From Neobacillus sp. PS2-9 (GTDB lineage Bacteria; Bacillota; Bacilli; Bacillales; Cytobacillaceae): a stretch of DNA of 64,000 nt. Under the pieces are notes generated by a model. It did not search any database, was not told the origin of the DNA, and saw only the letters and a list, made by a program, of their open reading frames with translations. The stretch spans positions 4,680,001-4,744,000 of the forward strand of contig NZ_CP133269.1 of NCBI RefSeq assembly GCF_030915525.1, written 5' to 3'. Shown in pieces: positions 16,872 through 36,165 of the stretch; position 1 is the stretch's first letter; each line of letters begins with the position of its first letter. The position numbers and the translations under genes were made by a program.

Positions 16872-16950
16872 AAGAAAAAAACACTTTCACTCTATTCTTT
16901 ATTCAGCCAAAATTACAGTCTTTAAGGAAATGTACTTTTCTTTATTTAAA

Positions 16951-18483: not shown

Positions 18484-18518
18484 AAAAATCACCTTTTTCT
18501 AATCCTCTATTAAAAAGA

Positions 18519-21469: not shown

Positions 21470-21556
21470 TTCAGCTCCATATAGAGCCTATTCACTTTAT
21501 ATAAAGGAATCTGATTGGTAAATGTAAGTTTTATTTTTATGAAATGAGGGGAACGT

Positions 21557-22624
21557 ATGAATAAAGAGTCCATATATGGATTAACTATAAATCAATTGAC
21601 AGCATGGCTTATCGAGCACGGTCATAAAAAGTCAAGAGCACAACAAGTTTGGGAATATCTTTATCGAGAGCGTGTAACAGCTTTCTCGGATATGACGGAT
21701 GTAAATCAAGCTTGTGTTCAATTGCTGTCAGAAAACTTCGCAATCCAAACCTTACAGGAGCATATCAAGCAAGAATCAGCCGATGGAACGATTAAATTTT
21801 TGTTCAAGTTGCAGGATGGCAACTTGATTGAAACGGTCTTAATGCGCCAAAAATATGGCCTTTCCGTTTGTGTGACAACGCAAGTAGGCTGTAATATCGG
21901 CTGCAGTTTTTGCGCGAGTGGTTTATTAGCGAAAAGCCGGGATTTATCCAGTGGGGAAATCGTCGAGCAGATTATGAACGTTCAACTGCACCTGGATAAA
22001 AAGGTTCAAGGTGAAACCGTCAGTCATGTGGTTGTGATGGGGATTGGTGAACCCTTTGATAATTTTGAAAACCTCATAGACTTTATCAAGGTGATTAAAG
22101 ATGATAAAGGGCTTGCGATTGCTGCTAGACGGATCACCGTATCCACCAGCGGGCTCGCGGACAAGCTCATTGAGTTCACGGATATGGGGCTGCAGGTAAA
22201 TTTGGCCGTTTCCTTGCATGCGCCAAATAATGAACTTCGGACGCGTATTATGAAAATTAACCGTGCGATTCCGATTGAAAAATTGATGCAGGCGATGGTG
22301 TATTATGTAGATAAGACCAACCGTCGGATTACGATTGAATATATTCTGTTGCGAGATGTCAATGACCATAAGCAAGAAGCCGAGCAGCTCGCAGAACTTC
22401 TGCGTCCTCTAGGGCAGAAAGTCTATGTAAACTTAATTCCATATAATCCGGTCGATGAACATAGTCAATATCAAAGAAGTGAACAGGAATCGGTACTGTC
22501 ATTTTATGATACGTTGAAAAAGGGCGGGATTAATTGTAAAATTCGCCAAGAACATGGAACAGACATTGATGCCGCGTGCGGACAGTTAAGAAGCAAACAA
22601 ATCAAAAAAACAGAAGCACGGTAA
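21557..22624 (+). CDS. rlmN: 23S rRNA (adenine-2503-C2)-methyltransferase, RlmN-type
   Basis: Radical SAM methyltransferase, 355 residues. The iron-sulfur motif CX3CX2C is C112, C116 and C119 ([13 protein letters not shown]). The mechanism's second cysteine is C341 ([10 protein letters not shown]). [16 protein letters not shown] matches RlmN rather than Cfr. Start ATG follows GAGGGGAAC. Bacilli usually keep their main rlmN beside other housekeeping genes (prkC, rsgA region); this copy next to an orphan methyltransferase gene may be a second paralogue. Both genes plausibly modify ribosomal or transfer RNA. Confidence 0.9.
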
Positions 22625-22640
22625 CTTCTACCAAATCTCC

Positions 22641-22745
22641 ATGGAAATGGCCTTTGCCCAATATGAAATCAACACTACAAAAATAAAGTTAGAAATGTGT
22701 GTGAACAACTTTTGTTTCAGCAAAACCGTTCTATTTAGTGCCTGA
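22641..22745 (+). pseudogene. Fragment resembling the PD-(D/E)XK nuclease gene
   Basis: Open stretch of 34 codons whose product contains NTTKIKLEMCVNNFCFSKT. The nuclease encoded at 8635-9570 has SAAKIKLELCLENFFTSKT at about residues 138-157. Nothing else of the gene remains here, so it looks like a decayed paralogue fragment rather than a functional peptide. Confidence 0.45.
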
Positions 22746-22746
22746 T

Positions 22747-22778
22747 CCCCGATACGTTAATGCATTAACGTATCGGGG
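22747..22778. repeat. Perfect 32-bp GC-ended palindrome
   Basis: CCCCGATACGTTAATG followed at once by its exact reverse complement. It lies between rlmN (+) and the end of the ribokinase gene (-), where it could terminate both. It has the CCCC...GTTAA...GGGG plan of the dispersed palindrome family seen elsewhere in the window. Confidence 0.7.
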
Positions 22779-22838
22779 GTAAGTAATCAGCAATTAACTA
22801 TCATGGGAATTTCTTTTTGTTACAATCGTTTAGATTTT

Positions 22839-23747
22839 TTATAACACCAGTTTTGATGCATTCAGTTCATAAAATTTTTCCAATTCCTCAACATATGGCA
22901 TTCCCGTTTGAGCTCCCATTTTCGTGACTGATATGGTTGCAGCCATTGTGGCAAATAAAACAGCGTCCTTTAGATTCTTATTTTTGCTAAGTTCCACTGC
23001 AAGAGCCCCATTAAAGGTATCCCCTGCACCAGTTGTATCAACAACCTCCACTTTCACCCCATTCAATGTAATTCTTTGGTTATGAAATTGAAATTCAACC
23101 CCATCTTCCCCTTTTGTCACGATACTTTTTGCTATAATTTGATCTTTCTCTTCTCCTGAGGCTTCATCTAATAGTTGACTATACTCATGCTTATTTGGTG
23201 TGAGGTATGTGACTCCATCTATGAGTTTTTTTGGTAGCTTTTGATACGGAGCAGGATTTAAAATGACAGGAACTTGATACTTATTTGCAATTTCTGTTAT
23301 TTTTATGACCGAATCTAATGGGATTTCTAATTGTAACAATAATAAATTACTATTTATTATTGTTTCTTCATGTGCTATAACCCATTCAGGTGTTACTTCA
23401 CTATTTGCTCCTGGTACTACGATAATTCGATTGTCCTGTCCAGAAATAATGATAGAAGCAGTACCCGTTTCTTTAATAGTGGCAATTTCAACAGATTCCT
23501 CATTCACACCCTCTTGCTGAAGTACTTCTTTAAGTTTCGTTCCAAAAAGATCTTTACCTACTTTTCCGAGCATATGAACTTCTGCTCCAAGTCTAGCTGC
23601 CGCAACAGCTTGATTGGCCCCTTTTCCACCAGGATATGTTGAAAACGATTGACCAGTTATTGTTTCACCTTGTAAAGGCGTTCGGTCTGTAACAGTAACT
23701 AGATCCATATTTAAACTTCCAATTACAGTAATGATAGGCTTTTTCAT
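22839..23747 (-). CDS. rbsK: Ribokinase (PfkB family)
   Basis: 302 residues. Phosphorylates ribose or a close sugar on O5. PfkB signatures are STYPGGKGANQAVAAARLGA near the N-terminus and VVDTTGAGDTFNGALAVEL with the catalytic Asp near the C-terminus. It is the last gene of the LacI-controlled TRAP operon, 73 bases after dctM. Partner enzyme RpiB is encoded at the other end of the same operon, which points to a pentose or pentose-like substrate entering the pentose phosphate pathway. Confidence 0.92.
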   Translation of the reverse strand: MKKPIITVIGSLNMDLVTVTDRTPLQGETITGQSFSTYPGGKGANQAVAAARLGAEVHMLGKVGKDLFGTKLKEVLQQEGVNEESVEIATIKETGTASIIISGQDNRIIVVPGANSEVTPEWVIAHEETIINSNLLLLQLEIPLDSVIKITEIANKYQVPVILNPAPYQKLPKKLIDGVTYLTPNKHEYSQLLDEASGEEKDQIIAKSIVTKGEDGVEFQFHNQRITLNGVKVEVVDTTGAGDTFNGALAVELSKNKNLKDAVLFATMAATISVTKMGAQTGMPYVEELEKFYELNASKLVL

Positions 23748-23820
23748 ATTTTAACCACCTTGCATTCGAGAGAATAAATTTGTATTAAAAGAAAAAGGGT
23801 ACCAAAAACAGGCCCCTTTC

Positions 23821-25098
23821 TTATTTCATCAATAAATTAGGTACATAAAGAACAATTTCAGGAACTAATGCAAATAGAATTAGTAACGCTATTAACATTA
23901 ATAAAAACGGCCAAATTTCCTTTGTAAATTCAACTACCGAACATTTAGCTATGCTTATAGCTACATACATAATCGTACCTACTGGCGGTGTAACTGTTCC
24001 AATCATCACATTAATAGCTAAAATAACACCGAAATGCAGGGGATCTATGTTATATTGGGTTAATAATGGTAAGATCACTGGAGTGGTAATAATGATAATA
24101 GCCATTCCATCTAAGAAGCACCCTAATATAAGAAGAATTAACATTAATAATAACAAAGCAACGTTGGTGGAATTGGCAACATTCTGAAACATGGCCAATA
24201 CTTTTGCAGGACCTTGTGCGTATGCTAGAACCCAAGCAAACGGTGCAGAAGCGGCAATAATAATTCCTATTGATGAAGACATTGTTACAGTTTCTAATAT
24301 TTTTTTTGGTAATTCATTTATCTTTAAATCCTTATAAACAAAAAGTCCAATAATTAACGAATAAATAACAGCAATAACGGCAGATTCAGTCGCTGTAAAT
24401 ATGCCCGAAAATATCCCTCCAACAATGATAACTGGCATAAGTAGTGCCCAAAAGGATTCTTTTAACGCTATTACAATCTCCTTAAATTGGGCTCTCTGTC
24501 TTTTTTCGAATCCTCTTTTTCTTGCAATAAAATAGGAAACGATCATTAATGAACCGCTCATCATTATGCCAGGAAGGGCACCGCCTAGAAACAACTTACC
24601 TATAGACACACCTGCAAGACTCCCATAAATTATCATCGGAATGCTCGGAGGAATAATCGGACCTACCGTTGCACTTGCACCTAAGATTGCTGCCGCAAAC
24701 CCTTTCCCATAACCTCTTTTTACCATGGTTGGAATTAACGCAGATCCAGTGGCGGCGGCATCCGCTACCCCAGACCCCGATACCCCACTCATAAAAACAT
24801 TTGATACGACCGAAACATGTGCTAAACTTCCTCTTATATGCCCCACTAGCACTTCCGATAAGTGGATCAGGCGTTTTGTTATACCGCCTGCTTCCATTAT
24901 CGTCCCTGCCAAAATAAACAGTGGAATAGCTAGCATCGGAAAAGAATCCAAGCCCAAGGCGAGTCTCTGTGGAATGGCCTGCAAAGGAATCGTATCTTGT
25001 AAAAAAATTGTTAGTAAAGATGCTCCAACTAGAGAGAATCCAACAGGAACACCAACAAGTAGAAGAGCCAATAAACAAATAATAAGTATAATCAGCAT
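23821..25098 (-). CDS. TRAP transporter large membrane subunit (DctM type)
   Basis: 425 residues, about twelve helices, in the inner membrane. Typical strings: DSFPMLAIPLFILAGTIMEA, SGVSGSGVADAAATGSALIP and GTVTPPVGTIMYVAISIAK. It works with the DctQ-type subunit and the DctP-type receptor encoded directly upstream as a sodium-driven, binding-protein-dependent importer. Confidence 0.94.
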   Translation of the reverse strand: MLIILIICLLALLLVGVPVGFSLVGASLLTIFLQDTIPLQAIPQRLALGLDSFPMLAIPLFILAGTIMEAGGITKRLIHLSEVLVGHIRGSLAHVSVVSNVFMSGVSGSGVADAAATGSALIPTMVKRGYGKGFAAAILGASATVGPIIPPSIPMIIYGSLAGVSIGKLFLGGALPGIMMSGSLMIVSYFIARKRGFEKRQRAQFKEIVIALKESFWALLMPVIIVGGIFSGIFTATESAVIAVIYSLIIGLFVYKDLKINELPKKILETVTMSSSIGIIIAASAPFAWVLAYAQGPAKVLAMFQNVANSTNVALLLLMLILLILGCFLDGMAIIIITTPVILPLLTQYNIDPLHFGVILAINVMIGTVTPPVGTIMYVAISIAKCSVVEFTKEIWPFLLMLIALLILFALVPEIVLYVPNLLMK

Positions 25099-25115
25099 TC
25101 AATTGTTCTTCCTTC

Positions 25116-25592
25116 CTATGTTAGATTGCTATCCCTCTTGAAGGTGGTTTGGTAAAGATCTTTGATCGTATAAATAATCAATAGAAAACTTGATAATGGT
25201 ACTGACATATATATAAGCCCTGTTGGTATCTGTAAACTGGTTGTAGGCACGTTCCATGTTTGCAGAGTTAACGTCCATCCATATTTTACAAGAGTGAAAA
25301 ATAAGATAAGTAGCGCCCCATGAATGAGAACATAGATTATTTGATTAATAGATTTTGAAAATACATTTCCTATTAAATCAATAGCTATATGCTTTTTGTG
25401 TTTAAATGCCACCACAGTCCCTAGGAGCACTGACCAAATAAAAGTATACCGAGCCAACTCATCTGTCCAAACTAAAGCTAGTTCAAAGAATCTAGCAAAT
25501 ACTCCAAGGGCTACCGAGGTACACATGATGATAAAAAGGAAACTGCTTAAAATCTCCTCGATATTTGTTATTAATAACTTCGCACTCTTCAT
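25116..25592 (-). CDS. TRAP transporter small membrane subunit (DctQ type)
   Basis: 158 residues, four helices. The conserved region LVWTDELARYTFIWSVLLGT followed by KHKKHIAIDL is characteristic of DctQ. It is separated by 17 bases from the DctM gene and 32 bases from the DctP gene, so all three are one transcription unit. Confidence 0.92.
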   Translation of the reverse strand: MKSAKLLITNIEEILSSFLFIIMCTSVALGVFARFFELALVWTDELARYTFIWSVLLGTVVAFKHKKHIAIDLIGNVFSKSINQIIYVLIHGALLILFFTLVKYGWTLTLQTWNVPTTSLQIPTGLIYMSVPLSSFLLIIYTIKDLYQTTFKRDSNLT

Positions 25593-25624
25593 ACTTCAAT
25601 CACTCCAAAAATGATGTATATTCT

Positions 25625-26677
25625 TTATTTTTGAGCAGCAATAATTTTTTCGTAATATCCCTTTCCTGCCTTATCCTCAAAAGTTTTATAGGTATCCGCT
25701 GTTGCTTTTTTAAAGGCCTTTAAATTAACTTCTACTACTTCCATTCCTGCATCTTTTAATTTATTTAATTCCTCTTCATTAGCTTTTAATTGGAGCTCTG
25801 ACATATATTTTCCAGACTCATTCATTGCTTCAGTTACAATTTTCTTCTGCTTATCACTAAGGCCTTTCCACCATTGCAAACTAACAACTGGAAGTTCGTT
25901 TTGTGTCATATGCCCAGTCAAATTAACGTACTTTTGTACTTCATAAAATTTATTGGTATAAATTTGATTTATGGAGTTTTCTTGAGCCTCGATTGTCCCT
26001 GTCTTTAATGACATATATACTTCAGAAATATTCATCGGAGTTACGTTTGCTCCCATTATCTTAAATGGCTCTGTATGGGCAGTTGCATCAGGCGTTCTGA
26101 TCTTTAATCCTTTTACATCTTCAGGTGTCTTTACAGGTTTTTTACTAGTTGTTACATGACGATCGCCTACCCACCATACTGCTTCAGGAAATGCAACCAA
26201 ATTAACGGTTTCTGCTTCAGTGCCAATTTCTTTATAGGCATCTGTCTTAGCGAGTTTAACAAAAGTTTGATATTTTTCACGTTCATTATTACCTTTTATC
26301 ACATATGGTAATGTTAATACAGAAGCTTTAGGTACAAAATTAGAAAGTACAGCAGACGAAGGAATTGTAATTTGAACAGTTCCTATTTGCGTGCTTTCAA
26401 TTAGATCTTTTTCACTACCTAACTGTCCGCCAGGTATAACTTCAACTTCCATCTGACCATCCGATTTTTCTTTCACCAATTCTGCAAACTTTACAGCACC
26501 CTTATGAATAGCAGATTGATCATTTGTTACGTGAGCAAGTTTAATTTTCATTACTTCATCAGATTTTTCATTTGAAGAGTTTGAATTTGTAGAGGATTCC
26601 TGTGTTTCACTGCATGCAACTAAACTCAACATTAATAGAGAACTAGCAACAAATGTTAGCGCTTTCTTAATCTTCAT
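25625..26677 (-). CDS. TRAP transporter substrate-binding protein (DctP type)
   Basis: 350 residues. Signal peptide with lipobox LVAC (Cys22), so a surface lipoprotein. DctP-family strings include QIGTVQITIPSSAVLSNFVP, GLKIRTPDATAHTEPFKIMG and MTQNELPVVSLQWWKGL. The Arg in KIRTP usually salt-bridges a substrate carboxylate, which would suggest a sugar acid rather than a neutral pentose; this tension with the ribokinase is unresolved. Its ATG overlaps the rpiB stop by four bases. Confidence 0.92.
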   Translation of the reverse strand: MKIKKALTFVASSLLMLSLVACSETQESSTNSNSSNEKSDEVMKIKLAHVTNDQSAIHKGAVKFAELVKEKSDGQMEVEVIPGGQLGSEKDLIESTQIGTVQITIPSSAVLSNFVPKASVLTLPYVIKGNNEREKYQTFVKLAKTDAYKEIGTEAETVNLVAFPEAVWWVGDRHVTTSKKPVKTPEDVKGLKIRTPDATAHTEPFKIMGANVTPMNISEVYMSLKTGTIEAQENSINQIYTNKFYEVQKYVNLTGHMTQNELPVVSLQWWKGLSDKQKKIVTEAMNESGKYMSELQLKANEEELNKLKDAGMEVVEVNLKAFKKATADTYKTFEDKAGKGYYEKIIAAQK

Positions 26678-27165
26678 TCTTTTATCCCCCTAAATTTTTT
26701 TACTTCTACTAATTGATTGGCATATTCCTTTTCCATTAAGCTAAGCTTTTCTACTCTGCGTCTGAATTCTTCAGCTGTGCTAAACTCAGCAGTTAAAAAA
26801 GAATGAACTAGTTCCTTCACTAAGGCTGGACCAATAATTTGAGCACCTATACACATTACATTGACGTCATCATGCTCAACACATTGATGAGCAGAATAAA
26901 TATCATGACAAACCGAAGCGCGAATGCCAGGAATTTTATTCGCTGCAATTGAAGCGCCTACACCTGTTCCACAAACTAGAATCGCCTTTTCCACTTCGCC
27001 ACTTCGGACTTTTTCGCATACGACCTTTGTAATATCCGGAAAGTCGACTGGATTTGGATCAAAACTACCACAATTTGTTACTTCGTGCCCTAATTCCTTT
27101 AAAACATCAATCACATGTCCTTTTAATGGAAAACCTGCGTGATCCCCGCCAATAGCTATTTTCAT
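26674..27165 (-). CDS. rpiB: RpiB/LacAB-family sugar-phosphate isomerase
   Basis: 163 residues; the first structural gene after the operators. Start MKIAIGGDHAGFPLKGHVID has the family His/Asp pair, and VCGTGVGASIAANKIPGIRA has the catalytic Cys. The family interconverts ribose-5-phosphate/ribulose-5-phosphate or allose-6-phosphate/allulose-6-phosphate. With ribokinase in the operon, ribose-type chemistry is most likely. The C-terminus is about 15 residues longer than in short RpiB proteins. Confidence 0.9.
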   Translation of the reverse strand: MKIAIGGDHAGFPLKGHVIDVLKELGHEVTNCGSFDPNPVDFPDITKVVCEKVRSGEVEKAILVCGTGVGASIAANKIPGIRASVCHDIYSAHQCVEHDDVNVMCIGAQIIGPALVKELVHSFLTAEFSTAEEFRRRVEKLSLMEKEYANQLVEVKKFRGIKE

Positions 27166-27199
27166 TTTTACCCCACCCTTATTTTTTCTATATATATAT

Positions 27200-27245
27200 T
27201 TAAACGTTTAACTATAATTTTAAAAAAATATTGTTAAACGTTTAA
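27200..27245 (-). promoter_or_regulatory. Two LacI-type operators
   Basis: TTAAACGTTTAA occurs perfectly at 27200-27211 and 27234-27245, centres 34 bp apart, between lacI and rpiB. LacI/GalR proteins bind such CG-centred dyads. A third, imperfect site lies before lacI itself. Confidence 0.75.
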
Positions 27246-27255
27246 ATAGCAATGT

Positions 27256-28269
27256 TCAACACCCACATGATTTTCTTATTATCATGTTTGGGTCTAGATA
27301 CTTAATTTCTCTTATTTCTGGACACGTACCCTGTATAGTATCTATCATCTTTTGGGCAGCATATACACCTAACTCAAAAGCAGGCTGTGTTATACCAGAT
27401 AATGGTGGATCAACAACATCCGCCCATTCTGGATCGTCAAACCCATACAAAGCAATATCTTGAGGAATCTTTAAGCCCTGTTCTTTAATATATTTATATG
27501 ATCCTAAAGACATAGAGTTATTAGAAATAAAAATAGCGTCTATTTTCATTTTTGACTCTATTATTTCTTTCGTTAATTCGTAACCGCTTTCAATAGTGAA
27601 ATCACCTTCTAACACAAGCTCATCATGGTAGGAAATAGCATAATCCTCTAGTGCTCTTTTATAACCGATATATCGATCCCTTCCAGTACTATACTGCATA
27701 GGCCCTGTAATAATAGCAATTTTTTTATACCCATGTTTAATTAAATGCTCAGTAGCCATGTAGGCCCCTTTAATATTATTCGTCATGACCATATTAGAAG
27801 GAAGATGTTCCGGACAGCGATTTAAAAAAACAAGAGGAACTTTTGCTTTCAATAAATCATCATAATGATTTCCTCCCCCTGAAGAAGAAATGATTAAACC
27901 ATCTATCCTTTTCCCCATTAATACCTTTAGATATTCTTTTTCTTTCTCCACATCTGAATCTGTACTACATAAAAGAACATTATATCCTTTCTCGGACAAT
28001 GTACTTTCAATTCCCTTTACTACTTTTGAAATAAAGCTATTTGAAATATCTGAAATCAATATTCCTATTAACCTTGATTGTTTGACCTTGAGACTTTTAG
28101 CGATTTCGTTGGGTTTGTAATTAAGCACTTTCATTGATTCGTAAACCTTTTTTTTCAAATCTTCACTTACATGTTTAGTATTATTAATAACATTGGACAC
28201 TGTTGCTGTTGATACATTAGCAAGTTGGGCAACCTCTTTCAGTGTGGCATCTTTCAATTTCTTCACCAT
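27256..28269 (-). CDS. LacI-family transcriptional regulator
   Basis: 337 residues. HTH and hinge helix at 1-60 (ATLKEVAQLANVSTATVSNV; KPNEIAKSLKVKQSRL) and a periplasmic-binding-like effector domain (about 65-337) including KRIDGLIISS and GFDDPEWADV. It heads the TRAP/RpiB/RbsK gene cluster, separated from rpiB by two TTAAACGTTTAA operators, and probably represses the operon until its sugar is present. It ends in a CGC motif (KSCGC). Confidence 0.93.
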   Translation of the reverse strand: MVKKLKDATLKEVAQLANVSTATVSNVINNTKHVSEDLKKKVYESMKVLNYKPNEIAKSLKVKQSRLIGILISDISNSFISKVVKGIESTLSEKGYNVLLCSTDSDVEKEKEYLKVLMGKRIDGLIISSSGGGNHYDDLLKAKVPLVFLNRCPEHLPSNMVMTNNIKGAYMATEHLIKHGYKKIAIITGPMQYSTGRDRYIGYKRALEDYAISYHDELVLEGDFTIESGYELTKEIIESKMKIDAIFISNNSMSLGSYKYIKEQGLKIPQDIALYGFDDPEWADVVDPPLSGITQPAFELGVYAAQKMIDTIQGTCPEIREIKYLDPNMIIRKSCGC

Positions 28270-28276
28270 CTCTTTA

Positions 28277-28290
28277 GTTAATCGTTTAAC
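28277..28290 (-). promoter_or_regulatory. Imperfect LacI-type operator before lacI
   Basis: GTTAATCGTTTAAC, one base pair away from the symmetric operator found downstream. It sits eight bases before the lacI start codon, consistent with autoregulation. Confidence 0.55.
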
Positions 28291-28455
28291 TGAATTATAT
28301 TGGGATTTTTATTTAATGTCAATAATTTTCAGAGAATTCTTTTAACTGTTTTATTCAAATCAATTGGATCCTGTTAACTCTAATAAATAGATATTTAAAA
28401 CATTACAATTTAGTTCAAATGATACTAAAAATATGTTTAGCCATGCATCGTGCAC

Positions 28456-28503
28456 AAAGGGTCAGCCCCCATCACTTTTACCACGATAGGGAGCTGACCC
28501 TTT
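28456..28503 (-). terminator. Hairpin downstream of the tubulin-like gene
   Basis: AAAGGGTCAGC (28456-28466) pairs with GCTGACCCTTT (28493-28503), with further partial pairing of CCCCCATC against GATAGGGAG inside. It is a member of the dispersed GGGTCAG/GGGGACAG palindrome family and lies six bases after the stop codon. Confidence 0.6.
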
Positions 28504-28509
28504 CATTCA

Positions 28510-29619
28510 TTATCTCTTATACTTCGATAACTTGGAAGTTACCGATCCGGTCTGTCTTTGAGGTGTTTTCGCTTTTAAGTTGGATGCCCATGATATTTTT
28601 GAATCATATTTCTGGGTATGTTCCTTGTTAACTAGGCTTTGTAAACGCTCTTTATTCTTCTCAAGTGATCCCTCAAGAGCCCTCATCCGGCGGGTAGGAA
28701 ATGAAAGTCCCGCTAAAATCGAGGTTATTGTGGGGTCTGATTCTGAGATATAGGTTCCTTCGAACAATTCAAGAGGTTCTCCCACCCTTTCAAAAACCAA
28801 TGGGACGTTAACTAGCTTTGCCATTTTCTCTGGACCTTCATAAATTAAACCTGCTCGAATCACACCTATTGATTCAACAGGACAAAATATCGAGTTTCCC
28901 CAAGATTGTTCAATTTTACTAGCTACTTCTGTGGTCGTCTTAGCGTCTGTAAGCGTGGTTGAAGATATAATCGTGACGCCTCTTGTATTCAGTATATTCA
29001 TAAGATCCGTTTCATCGAAGTTTCCGTAAAAGGAACTCTTTTTCGTTACTTGCAGTACGTTCTTAATGGCCTCCATGACTTGATGATTAGAAGAAAGGTA
29101 GATTTCATGTTTACTGGATTGTGGGTTCAACTTGCGCATCTGATCATTGTCTACAAGGAACACAGATGAAAGCGAGTCAATCTTAGAAATTTCTTCAATA
29201 CATTCAACCGCATTGATTCGATTACCAGCCAATACATTACGATCAGGCACAATCGCAATAGCACCTATGTTGACACCTGGGAGTTGGTCTAATAACAGAT
29301 CTATTAATATCGGGCTCATACCTGATCCAGTACCACCGTCCGTAGAAAAGGCCACCAACAAAAGCCTTATGTTCTTAAAGGACCGCTGTACAAAGTCAAT
29401 GATCTCTTTATAGTTTTCATTAACCGCTTTTAATCCTATTGATCGATCCTGCCCAGCACCATTATACCCTGGGATGAAATACTTCTTTTCCACCCTCGTA
29501 TTTACTAAGCCATCTCGCTGGTTCGTATTGATAAGCGCTGTTTCAAAGCCCATACTTGATGCTATTTCAGCTATATTCCCGCCTGCTTGGCCTACGCCCA
29601 AGATTCCAATTGATTTCAC
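28510..29619 (-). CDS. Tubulin/FtsZ-superfamily GTPase (TubZ-like)
   Basis: 369 residues from the GTG at 29619, chosen because GAGGAGGGGA lies eight bases upstream (an in-frame ATG at 29655 lacks this). Residues: N-terminal nucleotide loop GILGVGQAGGNIAE; tubulin signature GGTGSG at 95-100; NAVECIEEI helix; T7-like catalytic loop NFDETD at 200-205 with both acidic residues. So GTP binding, polymerisation and hydrolysis look intact. The tail is basic (TSKLSKYKR) and lacks the FtsZ peptide that binds FtsA/ZipA-type partners. No ftsA, minCD or tubR gene adjoins. It is not the housekeeping FtsZ; filament function (DNA partitioning, phage-like or membrane role) is unknown. Confidence 0.85.
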   Translation of the reverse strand: MKSIGILGVGQAGGNIAEIASSMGFETALINTNQRDGLVNTRVEKKYFIPGYNGAGQDRSIGLKAVNENYKEIIDFVQRSFKNIRLLLVAFSTDGGTGSGMSPILIDLLLDQLPGVNIGAIAIVPDRNVLAGNRINAVECIEEISKIDSLSSVFLVDNDQMRKLNPQSSKHEIYLSSNHQVMEAIKNVLQVTKKSSFYGNFDETDLMNILNTRGVTIISSTTLTDAKTTTEVASKIEQSWGNSIFCPVESIGVIRAGLIYEGPEKMAKLVNVPLVFERVGEPLELFEGTYISESDPTITSILAGLSFPTRRMRALEGSLEKNKERLQSLVNKEHTQKYDSKISWASNLKAKTPQRQTGSVTSKLSKYKR

Positions 29620-29758
29620 TAAATCCCCTCCTCTTCTTTTTAAAATAATACTCATATTTTATTAAATTAGACTTTTTCATATGAAATTACATGAAAATAG
29701 TTAGATAAGAAAATCGGGCAAAAACCTTTTTTGTTTAGCGAATATCCGATATTTTGTT

Positions 29759-29811
29759 GAGCTGTTGCTAAGAAAAGTCTATTTATTCGAGAAGGATTGT
29801 TTGTAATTGAT
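29759..29811 (+). pseudogene. 3' fragment of a TRM11-type methyltransferase gene
   Basis: This stretch nearly repeats 21419-21470, the end of the methyltransferase gene: TATTTATTCGAGAA and GTTTGTAATTGAT are identical in both, with a one-base length difference between them. Translated it gives AVAKKSLFIREG beside the real gene's AVAKKSVFIREV. Nothing upstream is recognisable, so it is a remnant of duplication or rearrangement. Confidence 0.55.
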
Positions 29812-29840
29812 AAGTCCTACCAGCCTCAAGGTCTCCATTC

Positions 29841-30018
29841 ATTTAATTAAACGTTTGATTAGTTTTTTCAGCCCATACGCACCATAACTTCCTGCAATTT
29901 AATCAAACGACGTACCATGGACTCCGACGATTTAATCAAACGTTTGATTAGTTTTCTCAGCCCTTGCGTACCATGGCCTCCAGCGATTTAATCAAACGTT
30001 TGATTAGGTTTTTCAGCC
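29841..30018. repeat. 56-bp tandem array carrying AATCAAACGTTTGATT palindromes
   Basis: ATTTAATCAAACG-type unit starts lie at 29841 (one mismatch), 29897, 29930 and 29986. Two units are 56 bp; the second is shortened to 33 bp by loss of its TTTGATTAG...CAGCCC part. Complete units contain the dyad AATCAAACGTTTGATT followed by AGTTTTTTCAGCCC and a CGTACCATGG-like spacer. The array fills the gap between the tubulin-like gene (-) and the NUDIX gene (-), starting 222 bp upstream of the former. The same dyad appears once more at 49192-49219. It could be stacked terminators, an operator array or a partition site. Confidence 0.8.
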
Positions 30019-30021
30019 ATG

Positions 30022-30048
30022 AAAAAAGACCTTCCTATTCGAAAGGTC
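30022..30048 (-). terminator. Terminator of the NUDIX gene
   Basis: On the minus strand GACCTT-loop-AAGGTC followed by six T. The stop codon (30035-30037) lies in the loop. Confidence 0.75.
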
Positions 30049-30499
30049 CATTAGAGGATCGTAGAAAATTTTCAATCATCATCCTAACTAAAGGAGTTGT
30101 ACTGTCCGGTAATTGGTGTAAAGGGAAAAATCCAGCATCAATCGACTCTTCCCCATCAATTTTAATAGTACTACTTTTAATATCTTTTGATATATAAGCA
30201 ATCGTCACTGGGTAGAATTCATCGCCATTAGCAAGCCTTCGGAAATACTGCTCACCCGAAAAAACTTCCACTAACTTAAGTTGCCCAATTTCAACGCCTG
30301 TTTCTTCAAAAACTTCCCTTCGTCCAGCATCCTCAACAGACTCCCCTAATTCTAACAAACCACCTGGAAGACCCCAGACGCCTTCAGGTCTTTTTTGCAA
30401 AAGAATTTTTCCATCCTCATCAACTACACCCACAACAGCGCCAACTAAAATGAGCGGCCGGGTTCCAATTATTTCTCGTAACTCCTCAATATAGCCCAT
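30035..30499 (-). CDS. NUDIX hydrolase
   Basis: About 154 residues. The Nudix box is complete: GGLLELGESVEDAGRREVFE then ETGVEIG, matching GX5EX7REUXEEXGU, which holds Mg2+ for cleaving a nucleoside-diphosphate-linked compound. Substrate unknown. In-frame TTG, ATG, ATG open the gene; I chose the second ATG (30499), six bases after GGAGG. It is encoded singly and ends in its own terminator. Confidence 0.92.
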   Translation of the reverse strand: MGYIEELREIIGTRPLILVGAVVGVVDEDGKILLQKRPEGVWGLPGGLLELGESVEDAGRREVFEETGVEIGQLKLVEVFSGEQYFRRLANGDEFYPVTIAYISKDIKSSTIKIDGEESIDAGFFPLHQLPDSTTPLVRMMIENFLRSSNGPFE

Positions 30500-30624
30500 C
30501 ATCAACCTCCATATATTTCTCCTTTATAAGTAATCTCTACATTCATTCAGGAAATGGACATCATTCCCCTCTGTTAATCGTTGAGAATTAGTATACTAAA
30601 TCATCTATCACTAAGTAAAAATAC

Positions 30625-30660
30625 AGTTCCCCACCAACGCTTTAATGCATCGGGGGACCG
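30625..30660. repeat. Degenerate member of the GC-rich palindrome family
   Basis: AGTTCCCCACCAACGCTTTA then ATGCATCGGGGGACCG: the CCCC...GCTTTAA...GGGGGA plan of the family, with decayed arms. It lies in the 254-base gap before the peptidase gene, which otherwise shows only promoter-like AT-rich sequence. Confidence 0.4.
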
Positions 30661-30753
30661 ATCCCAAAAGTTGGTAAATAAAAACATGAAACAATGGTGC
30701 TGTGCTTTACGTCTTAGATATGAAGACATTTTATATACGAGAGGAATACAGTT

Positions 30754-31338
30754 TTGAAATTAAAACGAATAGGAAGTTTATTGTTTATCATTTCTTTTGC
30801 TCTTATTATCATCCTTCTCTTTATGGAAGAGAATCCTATATCCGATTTGAATACAAACCAGTCTGTTTCTTTTCCAACTGAACTCCATCCAATTGTAAAG
30901 GAACGCAGCGATCAATTAATTCAAAAATCGGCACGTAAAAGAATTAGGGTCGTGATTACGGATGGTTTTCGAAGTGCGGAAGATCAGGATCGGCTATATG
31001 AGCAAGGCCGATCGACCGAAGGAACTATTGTAACGTATGCAAAAGGAGGAGAGTCTTATCACAATTTTGGTCTTGCCATTGATTTTGCGCTAAAGGATCC
31101 TTCAGGGAATGTCATTTGGGATATGAACTATGATGGAAATAAGAATGGGAAAGCCGATTGGACTGAGGTTGTAGTAATGGCAAAAGCTTTAGGGTTTGAT
31201 TGGGGCGGTGATTGGGCTCAATTTAAAGATTATCCTCATTTACAGATGGATTTCGGTTTGACAGTTGCCGACTTACAGAATGGGGAGAGACCTGCTGACT
31301 CATCCATGACCGTAGATACAAATCAGGGCAAACCATGA
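30754..31338 (+). CDS. M15-family peptidase (CwlK/VanY-like cell-wall endopeptidase)
   Basis: 194 residues. An uncleaved signal-anchor helix (about 6-25) exposes the catalytic domain outside. Zinc-site motifs: TDGFRSAEDQDRLY, SYHNFGLAIDF (His and Asp ligands) and PHLQMDF (third His). These match the L-Ala-D-Glu or D,D-peptidases that cut peptidoglycan stem peptides. The start is TTG, eight bases after GAGAGG. About 30 C-terminal residues after the domain look unstructured. Confidence 0.88.
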   Translation: MKLKRIGSLLFIISFALIIILLFMEENPISDLNTNQSVSFPTELHPIVKERSDQLIQKSARKRIRVVITDGFRSAEDQDRLYEQGRSTEGTIVTYAKGGESYHNFGLAIDFALKDPSGNVIWDMNYDGNKNGKADWTEVVVMAKALGFDWGGDWAQFKDYPHLQMDFGLTVADLQNGERPADSSMTVDTNQGKP

Positions 31339-31418
31339 TTCACCCTAATACACTGCATCCCTAACGAAAGGGCAGCGTATAGGTTTCGTATAAGCTTCAA
31401 TTCAGGAAAAATAGAATA

Positions 31419-31452
31419 AAACGCTCAGAGAGAAATTTTGCTCTGAGCGTTT
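31419..31452 (+). terminator. Terminator after the M15 peptidase gene
   Basis: Perfect 12-base stem AAACGCTCAGAG / CTCTGAGCGTTT with a ten-base loop, between convergent genes; probably bidirectional. Confidence 0.75.
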
Positions 31453-31482
31453 CATTTATATGGATATAAGCTAGAGTGTTAA

Positions 31483-31869
31483 TTACACTGAATGAGGATC
31501 TTTACCAGATAGCTCATTAATTTTACCAATCCAATCCTTAAAGCTTCCAAATTCATGTGGATCGAAGCCGAAGTACTCCTTAATGATGCGGACAGATTCA
31601 CTTTCATGTTCATGAAATACTCCATCTGAATAAATCAATTTCAAGAGTTCTGTTAAGACGATGTTTTTAGATCGTTCGGATTGAAATATCGCTAAAACGT
31701 CCTCAATTTCCTGACCTTTTATTTTATAATCCTCAAGCCCAACTTCCTTCTTAAACTTTTTTAGAACTGTATGTTCATATATAGATAATTTGCCATCAAT
31801 GGTTGATATCAGCGTAGCAAGTTCAAGAAACGCCTCTTTCTCCTCAGGCTTCAGTTCTGCTAAGAACAA
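31483..31869 (-). CDS. TerB-like helical protein
   Basis: 128 residues from a TTG at 31869 that follows AAGGGAG; the frame is open upstream but without a ribosome site. The product is all-helical and acidic (LKPEEKEAFLELATLISTID, then LLKLIYSDGVFHEHES), like TerB/DjlA-type domains that carry acidic residues in paired helices. Exact function unknown. A palindrome of the dispersed family lies just upstream of the coding region. Confidence 0.65.
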   Translation of the reverse strand: MFLAELKPEEKEAFLELATLISTIDGKLSIYEHTVLKKFKKEVGLEDYKIKGQEIEDVLAIFQSERSKNIVLTELLKLIYSDGVFHEHESESVRIIKEYFGFDPHEFGSFKDWIGKINELSGKDPHSV

Positions 31870-31945
31870 AATTCCACAACTCCCTTTAATCTTTGTACTA
31901 TTTATACGAATGAAAACAAAATAAGTTCCAACTTGGCCCAAAAAA

Positions 31946-31998
31946 GGTGCCTGTCCCCCGGCCTATTAATGTGTTAAAGCGGCGGGGGACAGGCAGCC
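31946..31998. repeat. Dispersed palindrome, GCCTGTCCCCC type
   Basis: GCCTGTCCCCC (31949-31959) pairs with GGGGGACAGGC (31984-31994) around a GTGTTAAAGC-containing centre. It abuts the stop codon of the ASCH gene and can serve as its terminator on the minus strand. Confidence 0.7.
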
Positions 31999-32423
31999 TA
32001 AATTGGATGCTCCCATAATCCTAGTTTTCCCTTTGCTGGGATCCACTCTTCTAGTAGTTTCATCTCTTTCACTTCCCAGGCATATCCACCTACTCGAAAG
32101 TCCCCGAGAAAAAAGTCATTTCCTTCTACGATTCGTCCATCCTCCAGGACGGCCCATGTTTGGTTATTCTCCGTTACTTTTATGCAATTGACGAGTTCAC
32201 ATATAGCAATAATTTTTCCGGTTGGAAGATTTTCAGTTGTGTATCCATGTTTACCAAGCAACTTCTGAATGGCAATATGTTTGCACACAGCCTTATCTAT
32301 TTTTAAACTAGTGTGAATGGCCATTGGGCCACGATAATTTGTCTTCCATGACCTGGTTTCGTATTGGTTCTCTCTAAGTACAAAAAGACTTGCCCATGGT
32401 TGGATCATCGATAGAACCTTCAT
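31998..32423 (-). CDS. ASCH-domain protein
   Basis: 141 residues, one ASCH domain: MKVLSMIQPWASLFVLREN, YETRSWKTNYRGPMAIHTS and the C-terminal WEVKEMKLLEEWIPAKGKLG. ASCH folds resemble PUA RNA-binding domains and some are RNases or amidohydrolases on modified nucleosides. It stands alone. The stop codon touches the palindromic repeat that follows. Confidence 0.88.
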   Translation of the reverse strand: MKVLSMIQPWASLFVLRENQYETRSWKTNYRGPMAIHTSLKIDKAVCKHIAIQKLLGKHGYTTENLPTGKIIAICELVNCIKVTENNQTWAVLEDGRIVEGNDFFLGDFRVGGYAWEVKEMKLLEEWIPAKGKLGLWEHPI

Positions 32424-32660
32424 TTTATTTGCCCCTAACAGTTAAAGTTCTTTTCTATAGCGTATCCCTTTCAAAAGTTACTATGACTGGTTAATTTCAA
32501 CTGAACGGTATCTATAGATATTTATACTTAAAGCTGTGCTTATTTCAGACAGCTTTATAAATTAATTAACAGCTATTGCGTAAACAAGTTCTCTAACAAG
32601 CTTTCAAATGAATATAAATGGGTATATAGAGATAGAAAACACTAGAAAGGAGATATGCCG

Positions 32661-32777
32661 ATGGATATGGATGTTTGTATTTCATGTGGAAAGGAATTGT
32701 CTAAATTTGAGAGGAACAGATGTGAATGTTGGGAATGCATGGACACGACTACTGAAGCCTATACAGAAGATGATTAG
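32661..32777 (+). CDS. 38-residue zinc-ribbon-like protein
   Basis: Small gene preceded by AAAGGAG at ideal spacing. The product begins MDMDVCISCGKELSKF and continues NRCECWECMD, giving CX2C ... CXCX2C, then an acidic tail ending in TEDD. Four or five cysteines could hold one zinc ion. A large terminator palindrome follows eight bases after the stop. Function unknown; similar tiny CX2C proteins are common in bacilli. Confidence 0.6.
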   Translation: MDMDVCISCGKELSKFERNRCECWECMDTTTEAYTEDD

Positions 32778-32784
32778 ATATGAC

Positions 32785-32844
32785 AAAAGGTGCCTGACCC
32801 CCAGCGTGGTAATGCGTTAACGCGGCGGGGGTCAGGCACCTTTT
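32785..32844. terminator. Bidirectional terminator, dispersed palindrome family
   Basis: AAAAGGTGCCTGACCCCC (32785-32802) pairs perfectly with GGGGGTCAGGCACCTTTT (32827-32844); the centre includes GCGTTAACGC. It separates the small zinc-ribbon gene (+) from the monooxygenase gene (-) and carries A/T runs on both sides. Confidence 0.85.
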
Positions 32845-32845
32845 T

Positions 32846-33139
32846 TTATTTTAGTGGTTGCCCTTCGAATGCTTTTACATCTAGTGGTGCAGTGAGGTAT
32901 TTTTTTACCGTTGCCACAAATGTGGTGAACGGCTCACTTGCGTTATGACTTGCTACGGCCTCTTTATCCTGCCACACTTCCACCATGGTAAAGATGTTTT
33001 CACTTTCTACATCCTTTTGAAGACGGTAGGAGATGTTTCCCGCTTCTGCTCTTGATGCAGCAATTAACAGTTGAATTTCTTCTAAAAATTGATCCTGCAT
33101 AGACGGATTAATATGAAATGTAGCATGAATAATAATCAT
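32846..33139 (-). CDS. Putative quinol monooxygenase (ABM domain)
   Basis: 97 residues, one antibiotic-biosynthesis-monooxygenase (ABM/YgiN-like) domain: MIIIHATFHINPSMQDQFLE, EAGNISYRLQKDVE and FTMVEVWQDKEAVASHNASE. These dimeric ferredoxin-like proteins act on quinols or heme-like compounds. It follows a nitroreductase gene by 43 bases on the same strand, so the two are probably one operon for quinone or nitro-compound stress. Confidence 0.88.
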   Translation of the reverse strand: MIIIHATFHINPSMQDQFLEEIQLLIAASRAEAGNISYRLQKDVESENIFTMVEVWQDKEAVASHNASEPFTTFVATVKKYLTAPLDVKAFEGQPLK

Positions 33140-33182
33140 CGTTAGGTCATCCTCTCATTTATTAATGGTCTAGTCTCTTTCC

Positions 33183-33833
33183 TTACTTCCATTGTGCGAC
33201 TTGATCGACTGGGAGACGTACGGATGGATACCCAGTATCTGCTGCTTTTCCGATGGAAATAAGCATAACTGGAACATAACGATCTTTATCTAAACCGAAT
33301 GCTTCTGCAATTTGGTCTTTTTCATAACCGCCAATAGGGTTTGTATCATATCCAAACGCACGAGCTGCTAGCATTAACTGCATGGAGACAAGGCCACCAT
33401 CAACTAACACGACGTCCTTCATATCTTCACGTGAAATGTTTTCATAATACCCGGCGAAAGATGTTAGGATTTGCTCTTTTACATCTTGTGGCATGAATCC
33501 CTTTTCTACCGCTGCTCCGTAGATAGCTTCCGCCTTTTCAAAATTGTTCAAATCACCAAATACAGCAATGATAGCTGATGAACTCTCAACCTGTGTTTGA
33601 TTGAATTTAGCAAGTGGTGCCAGTGTAGCTTTTGCCTCAGGACTTTCAATTACAAGGAAGCGCCATGGCTGCATATTTACAGAAGATGGAGCCAGTGTAG
33701 CTAACGTTATGATTTCAGTCATTTCCTCATGGCTAATTTTTACTGATTTATCATAATTTTTAATAGACCGGCGACCTTTAAGAATTTGGTTAAAGTCATT
33801 TATGAGTTGTCTTGATGCTGTAGCTGTAGTCAT
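33183..33833 (-). CDS. Nitroreductase-family protein
   Basis: 216 residues, FMN-dependent NAD(P)H oxidoreductase. RRSIKNYD near residue 30, LAPSSVNMQPWRFLVIE (FMN phosphate binding), and the C-terminal half ALGYDTNPIGG-like string AFGYDTNPIGGYEKDQ. Divergent from a TetR-type gene; the intervening region has a nested dyad. Probably reduces quinones, nitroaromatics or flavin-like substrates. Confidence 0.92.
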   Translation of the reverse strand: MTTATASRQLINDFNQILKGRRSIKNYDKSVKISHEEMTEIITLATLAPSSVNMQPWRFLVIESPEAKATLAPLAKFNQTQVESSSAIIAVFGDLNNFEKAEAIYGAAVEKGFMPQDVKEQILTSFAGYYENISREDMKDVVLVDGGLVSMQLMLAARAFGYDTNPIGGYEKDQIAEAFGLDKDRYVPVMLISIGKAADTGYPSVRLPVDQVAQWK

Positions 33834-33914
33834 AGGTGTATTCTCCTCTTCTGTTCATGTGAATGTAATATAATCTATTCTTATCTTGCCCAAGCTCTCT
33901 AACTTCCATGGGTT

Positions 33915-33988
33915 TAAAGTATTTTACTGATTTTATTTTAGACAAAATAATCACTTAACGTCTAAAGTGTTAACAATGGAATACTTTA
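33915..33988. promoter_or_regulatory. Nested dyad between nitroreductase and TetR genes
   Basis: TAAAGTATT (33915-33923) and AATACTTTA (33980-33988), and inside them TTTAGAC (33937-33943) and GTCTAAA (33960-33966). Both pairs share the same centre at 33951.5. This symmetry suggests an operator read by the divergent TetR protein, though a hairpin is also possible. Confidence 0.5.
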
Positions 33989-34090
33989 CTCCTCTTTTTC
34001 ATTTTTGTAAACTAAAAAAACTCGGCTTCGATGTAAAGAATTTCCCAATTGGTTTATGTTATAATTCTTGATGGAAAGAGAGTGTGGACT

Positions 34091-34756
34091 ATGAGAAAAA
34101 TATCAACTGAAGATCGATTACTAATGAGACAATCCCATATTAAGAAGATACTAAAAGTGATTCGTACTCAGGGATTTTTATCTTTATCTATCCAAGAAAT
34201 TGCTCAGTTGATGAACATGAGTCGAGCCTCTCTGTATAACTATTTCTCTTCAAAAGAAGACATCCTTATGGAGTTAAATGATTTTTGCATTTCCTATATT
34301 TATGAAGCAGGTCAAATGATTTCAAATACAGAGCTTTCCTATTCCCAACGTCTTCAAAAGGTCTTCGAACATGCCGTTTTGTCAGCTGCCTTTTCATCTG
34401 AGATTTTTTTGAAAGACCTTCAGATTAGTTGCATGTCACTTTATGAAAAAAAGAAGCAGGCGCGAAAAGAACAAATGGCCACCATTCATACGTTTTATCA
34501 AAATGGAATGGAGGCAGGATTCTTTAATGAATTAAATCCTACCCTTCTTATGATGCAAGACGAAACCGTCTTAAATAAGCTAATCAATACCTCGTTTTTA
34601 ATGGATGAGGAACTGACCTTAGAACGTGCTCTATATGATTACTTCTTGGCGAAATGCTTCCAAGTGCTACGACCCGAATTATTAATAAACATAAATCACA
34701 AAGAAATACACTGCATGGTGAAAGACATCCTCCACAAACTGTCGCCAATATTATAA
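34091..34756 (+). CDS. TetR-family transcriptional regulator
   Basis: About 221 residues. TetR HTH at about 15-60: SLSIQEIAQLMNMSRASLYN followed by YFSSKEDILMEL. The rest is a helical ligand domain. I place the start at the ATG at 34091, after GAAAGAGAG; upstream in-frame sequence contains a TATAAT-like promoter (34059-34064) and is not coding. Divergent from the nitroreductase/monooxygenase pair and probably their repressor. Confidence 0.9.
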   Translation: MRKISTEDRLLMRQSHIKKILKVIRTQGFLSLSIQEIAQLMNMSRASLYNYFSSKEDILMELNDFCISYIYEAGQMISNTELSYSQRLQKVFEHAVLSAAFSSEIFLKDLQISCMSLYEKKKQARKEQMATIHTFYQNGMEAGFFNELNPTLLMMQDETVLNKLINTSFLMDEELTLERALYDYFLAKCFQVLRPELLININHKEIHCMVKDILHKLSPIL

Positions 34757-34760
34757 AAAC

Positions 34761-34802
34761 GTGCCTGTCCCCCAACGCTTTAAAGCGATGGGGGACAGGC
34801 AC
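34761..34802. terminator. Convergent terminator, dispersed palindrome family
   Basis: GTGCCTGTCCCCC pairs with GGGGGACAGGCAC around AACGCTTTAAAGCGAT, followed by eight T. It lies between the TetR gene (+) and the kinase gene (-). Confidence 0.85.
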
Positions 34803-34809
34803 CTTTTTT

Positions 34810-36057
34810 TTATTTATGTAATGGAAAGACGATTGTAACGGTAGTTCCTTTGTTGAGTTCACTTTTATACTCGATGGAGCCGTTCATTTCGCGAATGAGT
34901 TTGTTGGTTACCATACTGCCAAGGCCTGTTCCTTTTGTTTTGGTTGTATAAAAAGGTAGCCCGATTTGTTTTAACTGCTCTGGTGTCATCCCTCTTCCGT
35001 TGTCTTCAATTCTAACTTCCACTTGATTCTTCATGTAATCTGCTTGAAGCACAATCTTAATCTTTCCTTGGTTAACGATGGACTCAATTGCATTTTTGAT
35101 GACATTCATAAGCGCTTGCTTTAAATGCGGTTCATCTCCATTGATATAGAATCGCTGTGTATTTTCATAGTCGATGATGACATTTGAATACGAAGCAAGG
35201 GGTCTCAATAGTTGGACACAATCACTTAAGACATCTTGTAAGGAGACAACAGTTAATTGAAAGGGTTCAGGCTTCGCCACTTTCAAATAGTTAGTAATTA
35301 TACTGTTCGTCCGGTCAAGTTCTTCAAGAATTAAGGGGGAGTATTTCTTCAATTGCTCATCCTTTGTATCTGTACTTAAAAATTGTATAAAACCTCGAAC
35401 GGTTGTCAGTGGATTTCGAATTTCGTGTGCAATCGAAGCCGTAAGCTGGCCAACCATAGTCAGCTTATCCATATACACCATTTCTTCAAACTGCTTATTA
35501 ATTTTTATCAGACTTTCAATCACAAAGATTAGGGCTATGGTGGTTAAATAAAAGGCAGTAAAGTAAGTTAAATAAAAGTGTAATTCTAAAAAATGAACAC
35601 TAAAATACAGAATGGTAATATAAACAACAAGATAGCAAACAATGACAATTGATCCCGCCGCAAGTCTAGCCTTTGCTTTTAAAAACATCCACCTAAATAC
35701 TAACGCACAGAAAAAAGCGACAACACATACTAGGATACCCGTGAAAAAAAACTTTCCACCAATGAAATAACGGATCAAACAGGTGCTAACTAAAATAAGG
35801 CTACCAGGTAGCCAGCCAGCATATAAAGTAAGGATGATGATGGCAACCATCCTGAGATCAAAATGCGTCTCACCTAAGGTACGAATGGGATAAAACATAC
35901 AGAAAAGTGCTCCTAAGGCACCCACCAACCCATAAATGACTTTTTGTTTTAGTGATAGAGGAGCTTTCGATTGAAACGGAAAAAACAAATTCATATTAAA
36001 AGTAAAAGATAATAATATCGTAATGTTAACAATCAGTGGTTTGATGAGAGTAATCAA
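34810..36057 (-). CDS. KinB-like membrane sensor histidine kinase
   Basis: 415 residues. The first ~185 residues hold five to six membrane helices of the LytS/5TM type (YGLVGALGALFCMFYPIRTL; DLRMVAIIILTLYAGWLPGS). Then a dimerisation helix with the phospho-site ASIAHEIRNPLTTVRGFIQF, and ATPase motifs NVIKNAIESI, DNGRGM and GTGLGS. HEIRNPLTT plus RGFIQ are typical of the sporulation/phosphorelay kinases, and the architecture is that of KinB. No response regulator is adjacent, as for kinases that feed Spo0F. Role in sporulation is inferred. Confidence 0.88.
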   Translation of the reverse strand: MITLIKPLIVNITILLSFTFNMNLFFPFQSKAPLSLKQKVIYGLVGALGALFCMFYPIRTLGETHFDLRMVAIIILTLYAGWLPGSLILVSTCLIRYFIGGKFFFTGILVCVVAFFCALVFRWMFLKAKARLAAGSIVIVCYLVVYITILYFSVHFLELHFYLTYFTAFYLTTIALIFVIESLIKINKQFEEMVYMDKLTMVGQLTASIAHEIRNPLTTVRGFIQFLSTDTKDEQLKKYSPLILEELDRTNSIITNYLKVAKPEPFQLTVVSLQDVLSDCVQLLRPLASYSNVIIDYENTQRFYINGDEPHLKQALMNVIKNAIESIVNQGKIKIVLQADYMKNQVEVRIEDNGRGMTPEQLKQIGLPFYTTKTKGTGLGSMVTNKLIREMNGSIEYKSELNKGTTVTIVFPLHK

Positions 36058-36165
36058 GAAAAATCCTCCACATAAAAATAAGGTGTAATCATATTTATCC
36101 TTGCCTTAGACACAAACAAACTTGCATCATTATAGCGTCTATCCTTGAATCATAACATAAAAAAA

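Follow-up and report, generated by a model that had tools for sequence, protein, structure and literature searches.

The bacterial tubulin relatives of the TubZ group have been described from plasmids and phages, on which, in the accounts consulted, they act together with TubR and tubC, and in the TubZ of phage c-st the tip of the C-terminal tail (C-tail) contributes to assembly and GTPase activity and binds TubR and TubY (PMC5322520, PMC5016525). The solved proteins of the group, from Clostridium phage c-st (3V3T, 4XCQ), Bacillus cereus (4EI7) and B. thuringiensis (2XKA), likewise belong to TubZRC partition systems according to the papers cited for them. A further set is formed by the type III partition systems of the Priestia megaterium plasmid pBM400 and its kin, for which a TubR structure exists (4ASN). 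Here we analyse a TubZ-type gene (28510..29619, minus strand) in a 64,000-nucleotide stretch of the chromosome of Neobacillus sp. PS2-9 (contig positions 4,680,001-4,744,000; this whole stretch is called the window, and coordinates refer to it). Its product, the orphan in what follows, is fairly probably a domesticated TubZ without TubR, which would form GTP-driven filaments and receive a partner on the basic tip of its C-tail.

Like the orphan, the TubZ proteins of pBM400 and kin are of TubZ type, measure about 370 amino acids (aa) and end in a basic tail tip, with ~30% identity over 96%; unlike it, they are plasmid-borne, form an overlapping tubR-tubZ pair and have a T7 loop without the N residue. 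Phage G gp138 shares with the orphan the T7 form N-x-D-x-x-D and the style of the C-tail, but it is a phage gene with a TubR-like open reading frame (ORF; gp137) directly upstream. This gp137-gp138 stretch (L081:4689-6116) looks like an unannotated tubR-tubZ pair, gp138 having been noted as a putative FtsZ-like protein. The solved TubZ proteins are the best structural matches, at 17-19% identity in fold alignments, whereas FtsZ has the GTPase fold and a T7 motif in common with the orphan but differs in its T1 loop and in keeping a C-terminal peptide. A second solitary chromosomal gene of the TubZ group, from genome G309 (L089:1474-2538), encodes a protein 28% identical to the orphan, but falls on a separate branch with a protein of a Pontibacillus megaplasmid; it is flanked by apparent hflX and spoVK-like AAA ATPase genes.

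A TubZ-group protein on the chromosome

The minus strand of 28510-29619 translates into an uninterrupted 369-codon frame, while the plus strand is ridden with stops throughout; an earlier sequence-only reading had assigned a protein to the interval, correctly, without naming the strand. Since dnaA (at 35 kb) and FtsZ, encoded in ftsAZ, share the single contig of 5,192,194 bases in which the window lies, the gene is chromosomal, as that reading had assumed, and not extrachromosomal.

The protein matches the Pfam Tubulin model (E 5.4e-12), and in the phage families phrog_17961 came first (E 9.1e-14) and the PhuZ family phrog_4733 second (E 3e-10), so that PhuZ is not the best match. In comparisons of both sequence and fold the best solved structures are TubZ proteins, ahead of FtsZ and CetZ, the latter being the next-best fold match, and in these comparisons the orphan is closest to TubZ on both counts. 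The absence of PhuZ and BtubAB from the 50 fold matches listed carries no weight against either, and a fold search of a viral library, headed by phage 'FtsZ' and cell-division proteins with PhuZ-like ones lower down, adds no information. With 369 aa the orphan is also below the size of the FtsZl1 and FtsZl2 layouts, compared by description only: an N-terminal FtsZ domain with a coiled-coil in the former and with a C-terminal region of ~300 aa in the latter (PMC2875224). An ordinary copy of FtsZ is ruled out by the score with the FtsZ model TIGR00065 (55.4 bits against a cut-off of 295.2), by the lack of an FtsZ peptide and by the separate position of the host FtsZs in the tree described below; the FtsZ model search and tree that the sequence-only reading had proposed both speak against such a copy, the tree nesting the protein with plasmid and phage TubZ. 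The host genome holds two more tubulin relatives, FtsZ beside ftsA (L002) and a second FtsZ away from it (L003:1462-2658; G000:C1:2406893), of 398 aa and with a C-terminal peptide identical to that of FtsZ; in the 14 genomes examined for it, its own included, the copy is 70-100% identical to this second FtsZ.

Searches with tblastn found phage G only among 50,697 phage records (two records of one phage; 28.6% identity over 99%, 2e-44) and 29 matches among 72,556 plasmid records, with B. pumilus, B. velezensis and Priestia megaterium first, at about 30%. A scan of viral contigs with an alignment of phage G, plasmid and orphan proteins gave 49 loci, many on contigs of 120-135 kb, and a scan of them with the orphan alignment alone gave no close relatives. 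A tree of 61 rows, which used 28 of the 103 listed proteins of one set, four further close homologues and nine of the 49 viral loci, and omitted five rows that were long or duplicates (Pmeg2, RuminoMAG, Desul, Cetob, Ross), placed the orphans in one clade (100/100, midpoint root). This clade belongs to a 53-row group (100/99) that also holds the phage G-like, plasmid and viral proteins and is separate from the host FtsZs and the remoter plasmid TubZs; within the tree, orphans and plasmid or phage rows make up a 40-row group (97/90). In an earlier tree of 24 rows the orphans were again one group (97/100), with the deeper forks unsettled. Taken with the sequence and the predicted fold, the trees sharpen the previous label of 'TubZ/FtsZ-like': the gene very probably belongs to the TubZ group and derives from tubRZ modules carried by plasmids and phages of Bacillaceae, the jumbo phage G among them.

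Motif conservation was followed in 63 intact orthologues, namely 62 of the 63 close loci (L140 was dropped) and the window gene. Mean column identity is 0.988 at T1, 0.998 at T4 and 0.982 at T7, against 0.842 overall. The T1 loop GVGQAGGN (residues 8-15; 29575..29598, minus strand), with residues 8 and 10-15 invariant in all 63, is TubZ-like, the host FtsZ aligning there with GVGGGGNN. The GGTGSG signature and the NFDETD loop singled out beforehand are both in place, as DGGTGSG in T4 (residues 94-100; 29320..29340, minus strand) and as GNFDETD (199-205) in the T7 catalytic loop GNFDETDL (residues 199-206; 29002..29025, minus strand), in which N200, D202 and D205 are invariant in 63 of 63; judged by these residues, the GTP-binding and catalytic loops are intact. 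The alignment against the host FtsZ also bears out the lack of an FtsZ-type C-terminal peptide (DIPTFLRNR in that protein). The orphan ends in a basic tip of the form K-L-x-K-Y-x-[KR] (residues 358-369; 28513..28548, minus strand), the 12 residues of which are conserved above the preceding linker (mean identity 0.69 vs 0.58), with K363 at 0.95, K366 at 0.98 and KLSKYQK as the most frequent ending (16 of the 63). Similar basic ends are seen in the aligned TubZ proteins of pBM400 and of the B. pumilus and B. velezensis plasmids, as well as in phage G gp138.

The gene is present in 34 of 35 genomes of the genus at 75-88% identity, and no close homologue was found in 24 genomes of other families of the order (best E 2.7e-9). 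In an order-wide sample, six of 397 genomes (own included), from three of 135 genera, match at 1e-12, one being the remote 26% protein of G309, and none of the 13 other same-family genomes of the listing does. A pattern-based scan of 84,980 species genomes gave 64 loci, a remote one in a Ruminococcus metagenome-assembled genome and 63 close ones titled mostly Neobacillus or 'Bacillus sp.', with one each from Mesobacillus, Peribacillus, Niallia and Paenibacillus. The median ratio of nonsynonymous to synonymous divergence (dN/dS) is 0.081 in the 243 pairs with usable dS, of 2016, and distances of the tubulin protein track those of FtsA (Mantel r 0.653, with none of 5000 permutations as high; 15 genomes). 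As judged from these sequence comparisons, the gene is near-core in the genus and under strong purifying selection. It is also solitary, with unstable neighbours: only 15 of 120 genome pairs (16 loci) share a gene within 3.5 kb of it, versus 59 of 91 for the second FtsZ (14 loci) and 171 of 171 for FtsZ (19 loci). It lies away from division genes, as had been noticed before, and at 449-661 kb from dnaA in five of the ten genomes with both on one contig (the contig of G030 was assumed circular); in the other five the distance is 1.3 Mb or the gene falls in the terminus half.

TubR and the DNA elements around the gene

Among the 31 plasmid and phage matches, 14 loci were inspected, and in 13 of them a small gene (annotated at 90-114 aa) ends no more than ~45 bases from the tubulin start, often overlapping it. 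The product of the pBM400 one is 100% identical to the TubR of PDB 4ASN, and a profile built from four of these small proteins also finds the TubR of 6TEY (4e-4). A 13-member TubR profile recovered every member in leave-one-out runs (E 1.5e-32 to 8.5e-4, two members being near-identical) and gave an adjacent match in 40 of the 49 viral loci, among which near copies are frequent. On chromosomes, some same-strand ORF of 60-160 aa lies near the tubulin start in 14 of 63 loci, and none of the 12 best profile matches in these 63 (E 0.0017 to 1.6) adjoins the gene. With only 21 bases upstream, L134 is uninformative, and in the 62 informative loci the earlier remark that no tubR is adjacent holds: there is no recognisable TubR beside the gene, and the tubR directly upstream that characterizes type III systems is missing. 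Genome-wide searches of eight genomes with the four-sequence profile revealed nothing convincing (best E 0.0028; 0.0034 in the host genome), a similar match (E 0.0046) occurring in the sister genome G027, which has no tubulin gene; this profile is small and winged helix-turn-helix domains are short, so a diverged adaptor could escape it. TubR is thus missing as a rule on chromosomes and only exceptionally on plasmids and phages, a difference of degree. A simple repeat search for tubC-like iterons on the plasmid relatives yielded few and short repeats, useless for finding counterparts.

The clear multi-copy repeat upstream of the gene, among the 20 listed of at least 60, is a genome-wide palindrome, although short imperfect repeats could be missed in this way. 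Three copies of this 18-bp palindrome, TAATYAAACGTTTGATTA, start at 29844, 29933 and 29989 (29844..30006). The form TTAATCAAACGTTTGATTA has 47 forward matches in the genome with at most two mismatches (control 0), and the 48 sites make up 25 clusters; one arm carries 10 of these and the other 15, at distances of 401-723 kb from dnaA throughout. The palindrome, which can also be written TAATCAAACGTTTGATTA, recurs in the window at 49196-49214, and it is found singly or in arrays with a period of ~54-56 bp. There are 29-49 copies of the 18-bp form in 12 of 12 same-genus genomes and 1-15 in five of five genomes of other families (controls 0-2). In G010 and G015 (the latter listed in part) most copies are likewise found on both arms, no more than several hundred kb from dnaA; the exceptions are a site about 1 Mb away in G015 and, in G010, one site at 4.09 Mb and five at 213 kb. 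The sequence-only reading had hinted that this flanking array belongs to the gene and had proposed checking whether their synteny is kept. It is not: a palindrome (at most two mismatches) lies within 1.5 kb of the gene in only one of 29 relatives, and G027 keeps the array, with 31 palindromes in all, without a tubulin gene. As the array is absent near 28 of 29 orthologues and its sites flank oriC, it was rejected as the centromere of the gene and is not part of a tubulin system. In Bacillus subtilis the RefZ-binding motifs lie two per arm with one more near oriC, at positions conserved across Bacillus (PMC6657595). The layout of the palindromes resembles this, and they may represent RefZ-type binding motifs that have multiplied greatly.

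Another element appears to be tied to the gene itself. Ahead of the ribosome site, a block of ~45 bases (GTCTAA..GAGTATTATTTTAG) is conserved in 23 of 30 aligned genomes and diverged in seven, and alignment and genome searches point to its part GTCTAA-N13-GAGTATTAT (29645..29672, minus strand) as a probable promoter. In six genomes searched with up to three mismatches (G000, G005, G010, G024, G027, G033), the block finds the gene's own copy in the first four and, besides, one three-mismatch site each in G000 and G005; no match was found in G027, without the gene, or in G033, with a more diverged copy. The block is gene-specific and probably serves the gene as its promoter and operator. The pair GTCTAA-N13-GAGTAT resembles the sigma-B consensus. 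An exact copy stands in 36 of the 63 upstream regions (z 12.2 when compared with shuffles of single letters, the loci being non-independent), where eight other sigma patterns reach z -3.2 to 2.8. Of 12 genomes searched, nine have a sigma-B above the cut-off, and the block is also conserved in the remaining three (G005, G024, G033), G033 showing a single change at -35. The sites upstream of sigB, at a distance fitting rsbV, are different (GTTTAG-N13/14-GGGTAT in eight of nine loci, GGTTAT in the ninth). Given these sites, the sigma-B-less genomes and the gene-specificity of the block, a sigma-B promoter was rejected.

Proposed role and alternatives

The orphan is a member of the TubZ protein group and is not a self-contained type III partition cassette, because it has no adjacent tubR and resides on the chromosome. 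The 'domesticated partition filament' of the sequence-only reading therefore stands in its descent (nesting with plasmid and phage TubZ, near-core distribution, purifying selection) while a partition function finds no support: TubR was not seen beside the gene or convincingly anywhere in eight genomes, no gene-linked centromere was found, and the chromosomal position is not fixed. The history we propose is that a TubZ from a plasmid or phage tubRZ module was captured by the chromosome, with which it is now passed on in Neobacillus and a few taxa close to it. The protein would bind GTP and assemble head to tail, each GTPase site being made complete by the T7 loop of the adjacent subunit, and a treadmilling cytoplasmic filament like that of TubZ could result. 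The basic tip, through which TubZ touches the complex of TubR with DNA, might here dock a partner encoded elsewhere, and the filament would position some cellular cargo or act as a scaffold. Filament formation is likely, and the odds of an unlinked adaptor other than TubR are about even.

Several observations weigh against this proposal. The AlphaFold2 prediction has low confidence in the C-terminal domain and tail, and the nearest join of the orphans in the 61-row tree, with the protein P0176, is weak (89/62, midpoint root). The association of TubR with mobile elements has its gaps, the Pontibacillus megaplasmid being the sole one of the 14 inspected loci without a small upstream gene and nine of the 49 viral loci lacking an adjacent match to the TubR profile. 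The T7 N of the orphan is missing from its closest plasmid relatives (pBM400, B. pumilus, B. velezensis), so that the orphan's activity may differ from theirs. Finally, the gene is not strictly required, for G027 lives without it and the N. pocheonensis orthologue (L140) appears to be disrupted, its frame meeting a stop after the 37th codon, unlike the intact copies of the other close loci.

The protein could alternatively be the motor of a chromosomal partition or positioning system with its DNA-binding adaptor and centromere unlinked, for instance in the palindrome arrays flanking oriC. The conserved C-tail tip, the location of the host gene within the left-arm palindrome clusters and the 449-661 kb from dnaA in half of the one-contig genomes would fit, but the other half do not keep this distance, the palindromes and the gene are found apart in 28 of 29 relatives, G027 has palindromes without the gene, and TubR searches of eight genomes gave nothing convincing, with G027 itself giving a match, so this is unlikely. 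An accessory tubulin for division or cell shape, working with FtsZ or the second FtsZ in a CetZ-like role, gains something from the coexistence of FtsZ and, in many genomes, the second FtsZ, and from the fold rank of CetZ; without an FtsZ peptide or division genes nearby, and with TubZ outranking both families, it is most unlikely.

The solitary gene at shifting loci, with its nearest relatives on Bacillaceae plasmids, viral contigs and phage G, could also be read as a means of interfering with incoming TubRZ phages or plasmids, by co-polymerising with their filament or titrating it. Most defence genes are not near-universal and under purifying selection in the manner seen here, and the kept catalytic loop, the identity of only about 30% to plasmid and phage TubZ and the lack of a PADLOC match at E 0.01 make this quite unlikely as well. 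A recent plasmid or phage insertion, or a decaying relic, has next to no chance: the unstable neighbourhood and the 6.9-kb block missing in G027 recall one, but the presence in 34 of 35 genomes, the dN/dS of 0.08 and a divergence tracking that of FtsA contradict it.

Returning to the domesticated TubZ, a bolder version of it, less likely than not, would be a new host cytoskeletal system, a filament free of TubR and tubC with a different adaptor on the same tip, perhaps serving chromosome- or spore-related positioning as a third host tubulin beside the two FtsZs. No description of a genus-wide chromosomal TubZ was found among the listed titles and abstract starts of full-text literature searches, mostly outside subscription papers. 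If true, the domestication would be direct evidence that a host can tame the cytoskeleton of a mobile element, and one gene in environmental bacilli, with a natural null in the sister genome, would make a tractable set for the role of a tubulin filament freed from plasmid segregation.

Gene borders and neighbours

The GTG start at 29619 is favoured because a GGAGG-like ribosome site precedes it and the position is ATG, GTG or TTG in 27 of 30 aligned genomes; the other three (L012, L015, L025) have GCG there and ATG one codon upstream. The ribosome binding site GGAGGGG (29625..29633, minus strand) is backed by sequence and alignment. An in-frame ATG at 29655 heads the listed ORF and would give a 381-aa product, the listed homologues being mostly of 368-371 aa, so that the segment 29620..29655 (minus strand) is probably 5' untranslated region. 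Past the stop codon, an inverted repeat seen by eye (28457..28504, minus strand) is a likely terminator, and the gene appears monocistronic.

In the window the gene closes a block of ribokinase, TRAP transporter, rpiB and lacI genes (22983..29910) that is missing at the matching place of G027. This genome matches 8599-22982 (95-98%) and 29911-36132 (90-93%) with the two ends abutting, and 1-5065 further left (84-86%); within 22983-29910 no match of at least 150 bases was found there, save a 73% rpiB-like one a few kb off. The lacI-rpiB-TRAP operon adjoins the gene in the window (22839-29655) and also in two distant relatives, L134 and L139, the neighbours at the other loci compared being different. 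On the other side, a NUDIX-type protein (30035-30505) matches part of the PADLOC model PDC-S07 (2.9e-9), and farther away a 53-bp tandem repeat occupies 56537-56664, with 2.4 copies and 86% matches.
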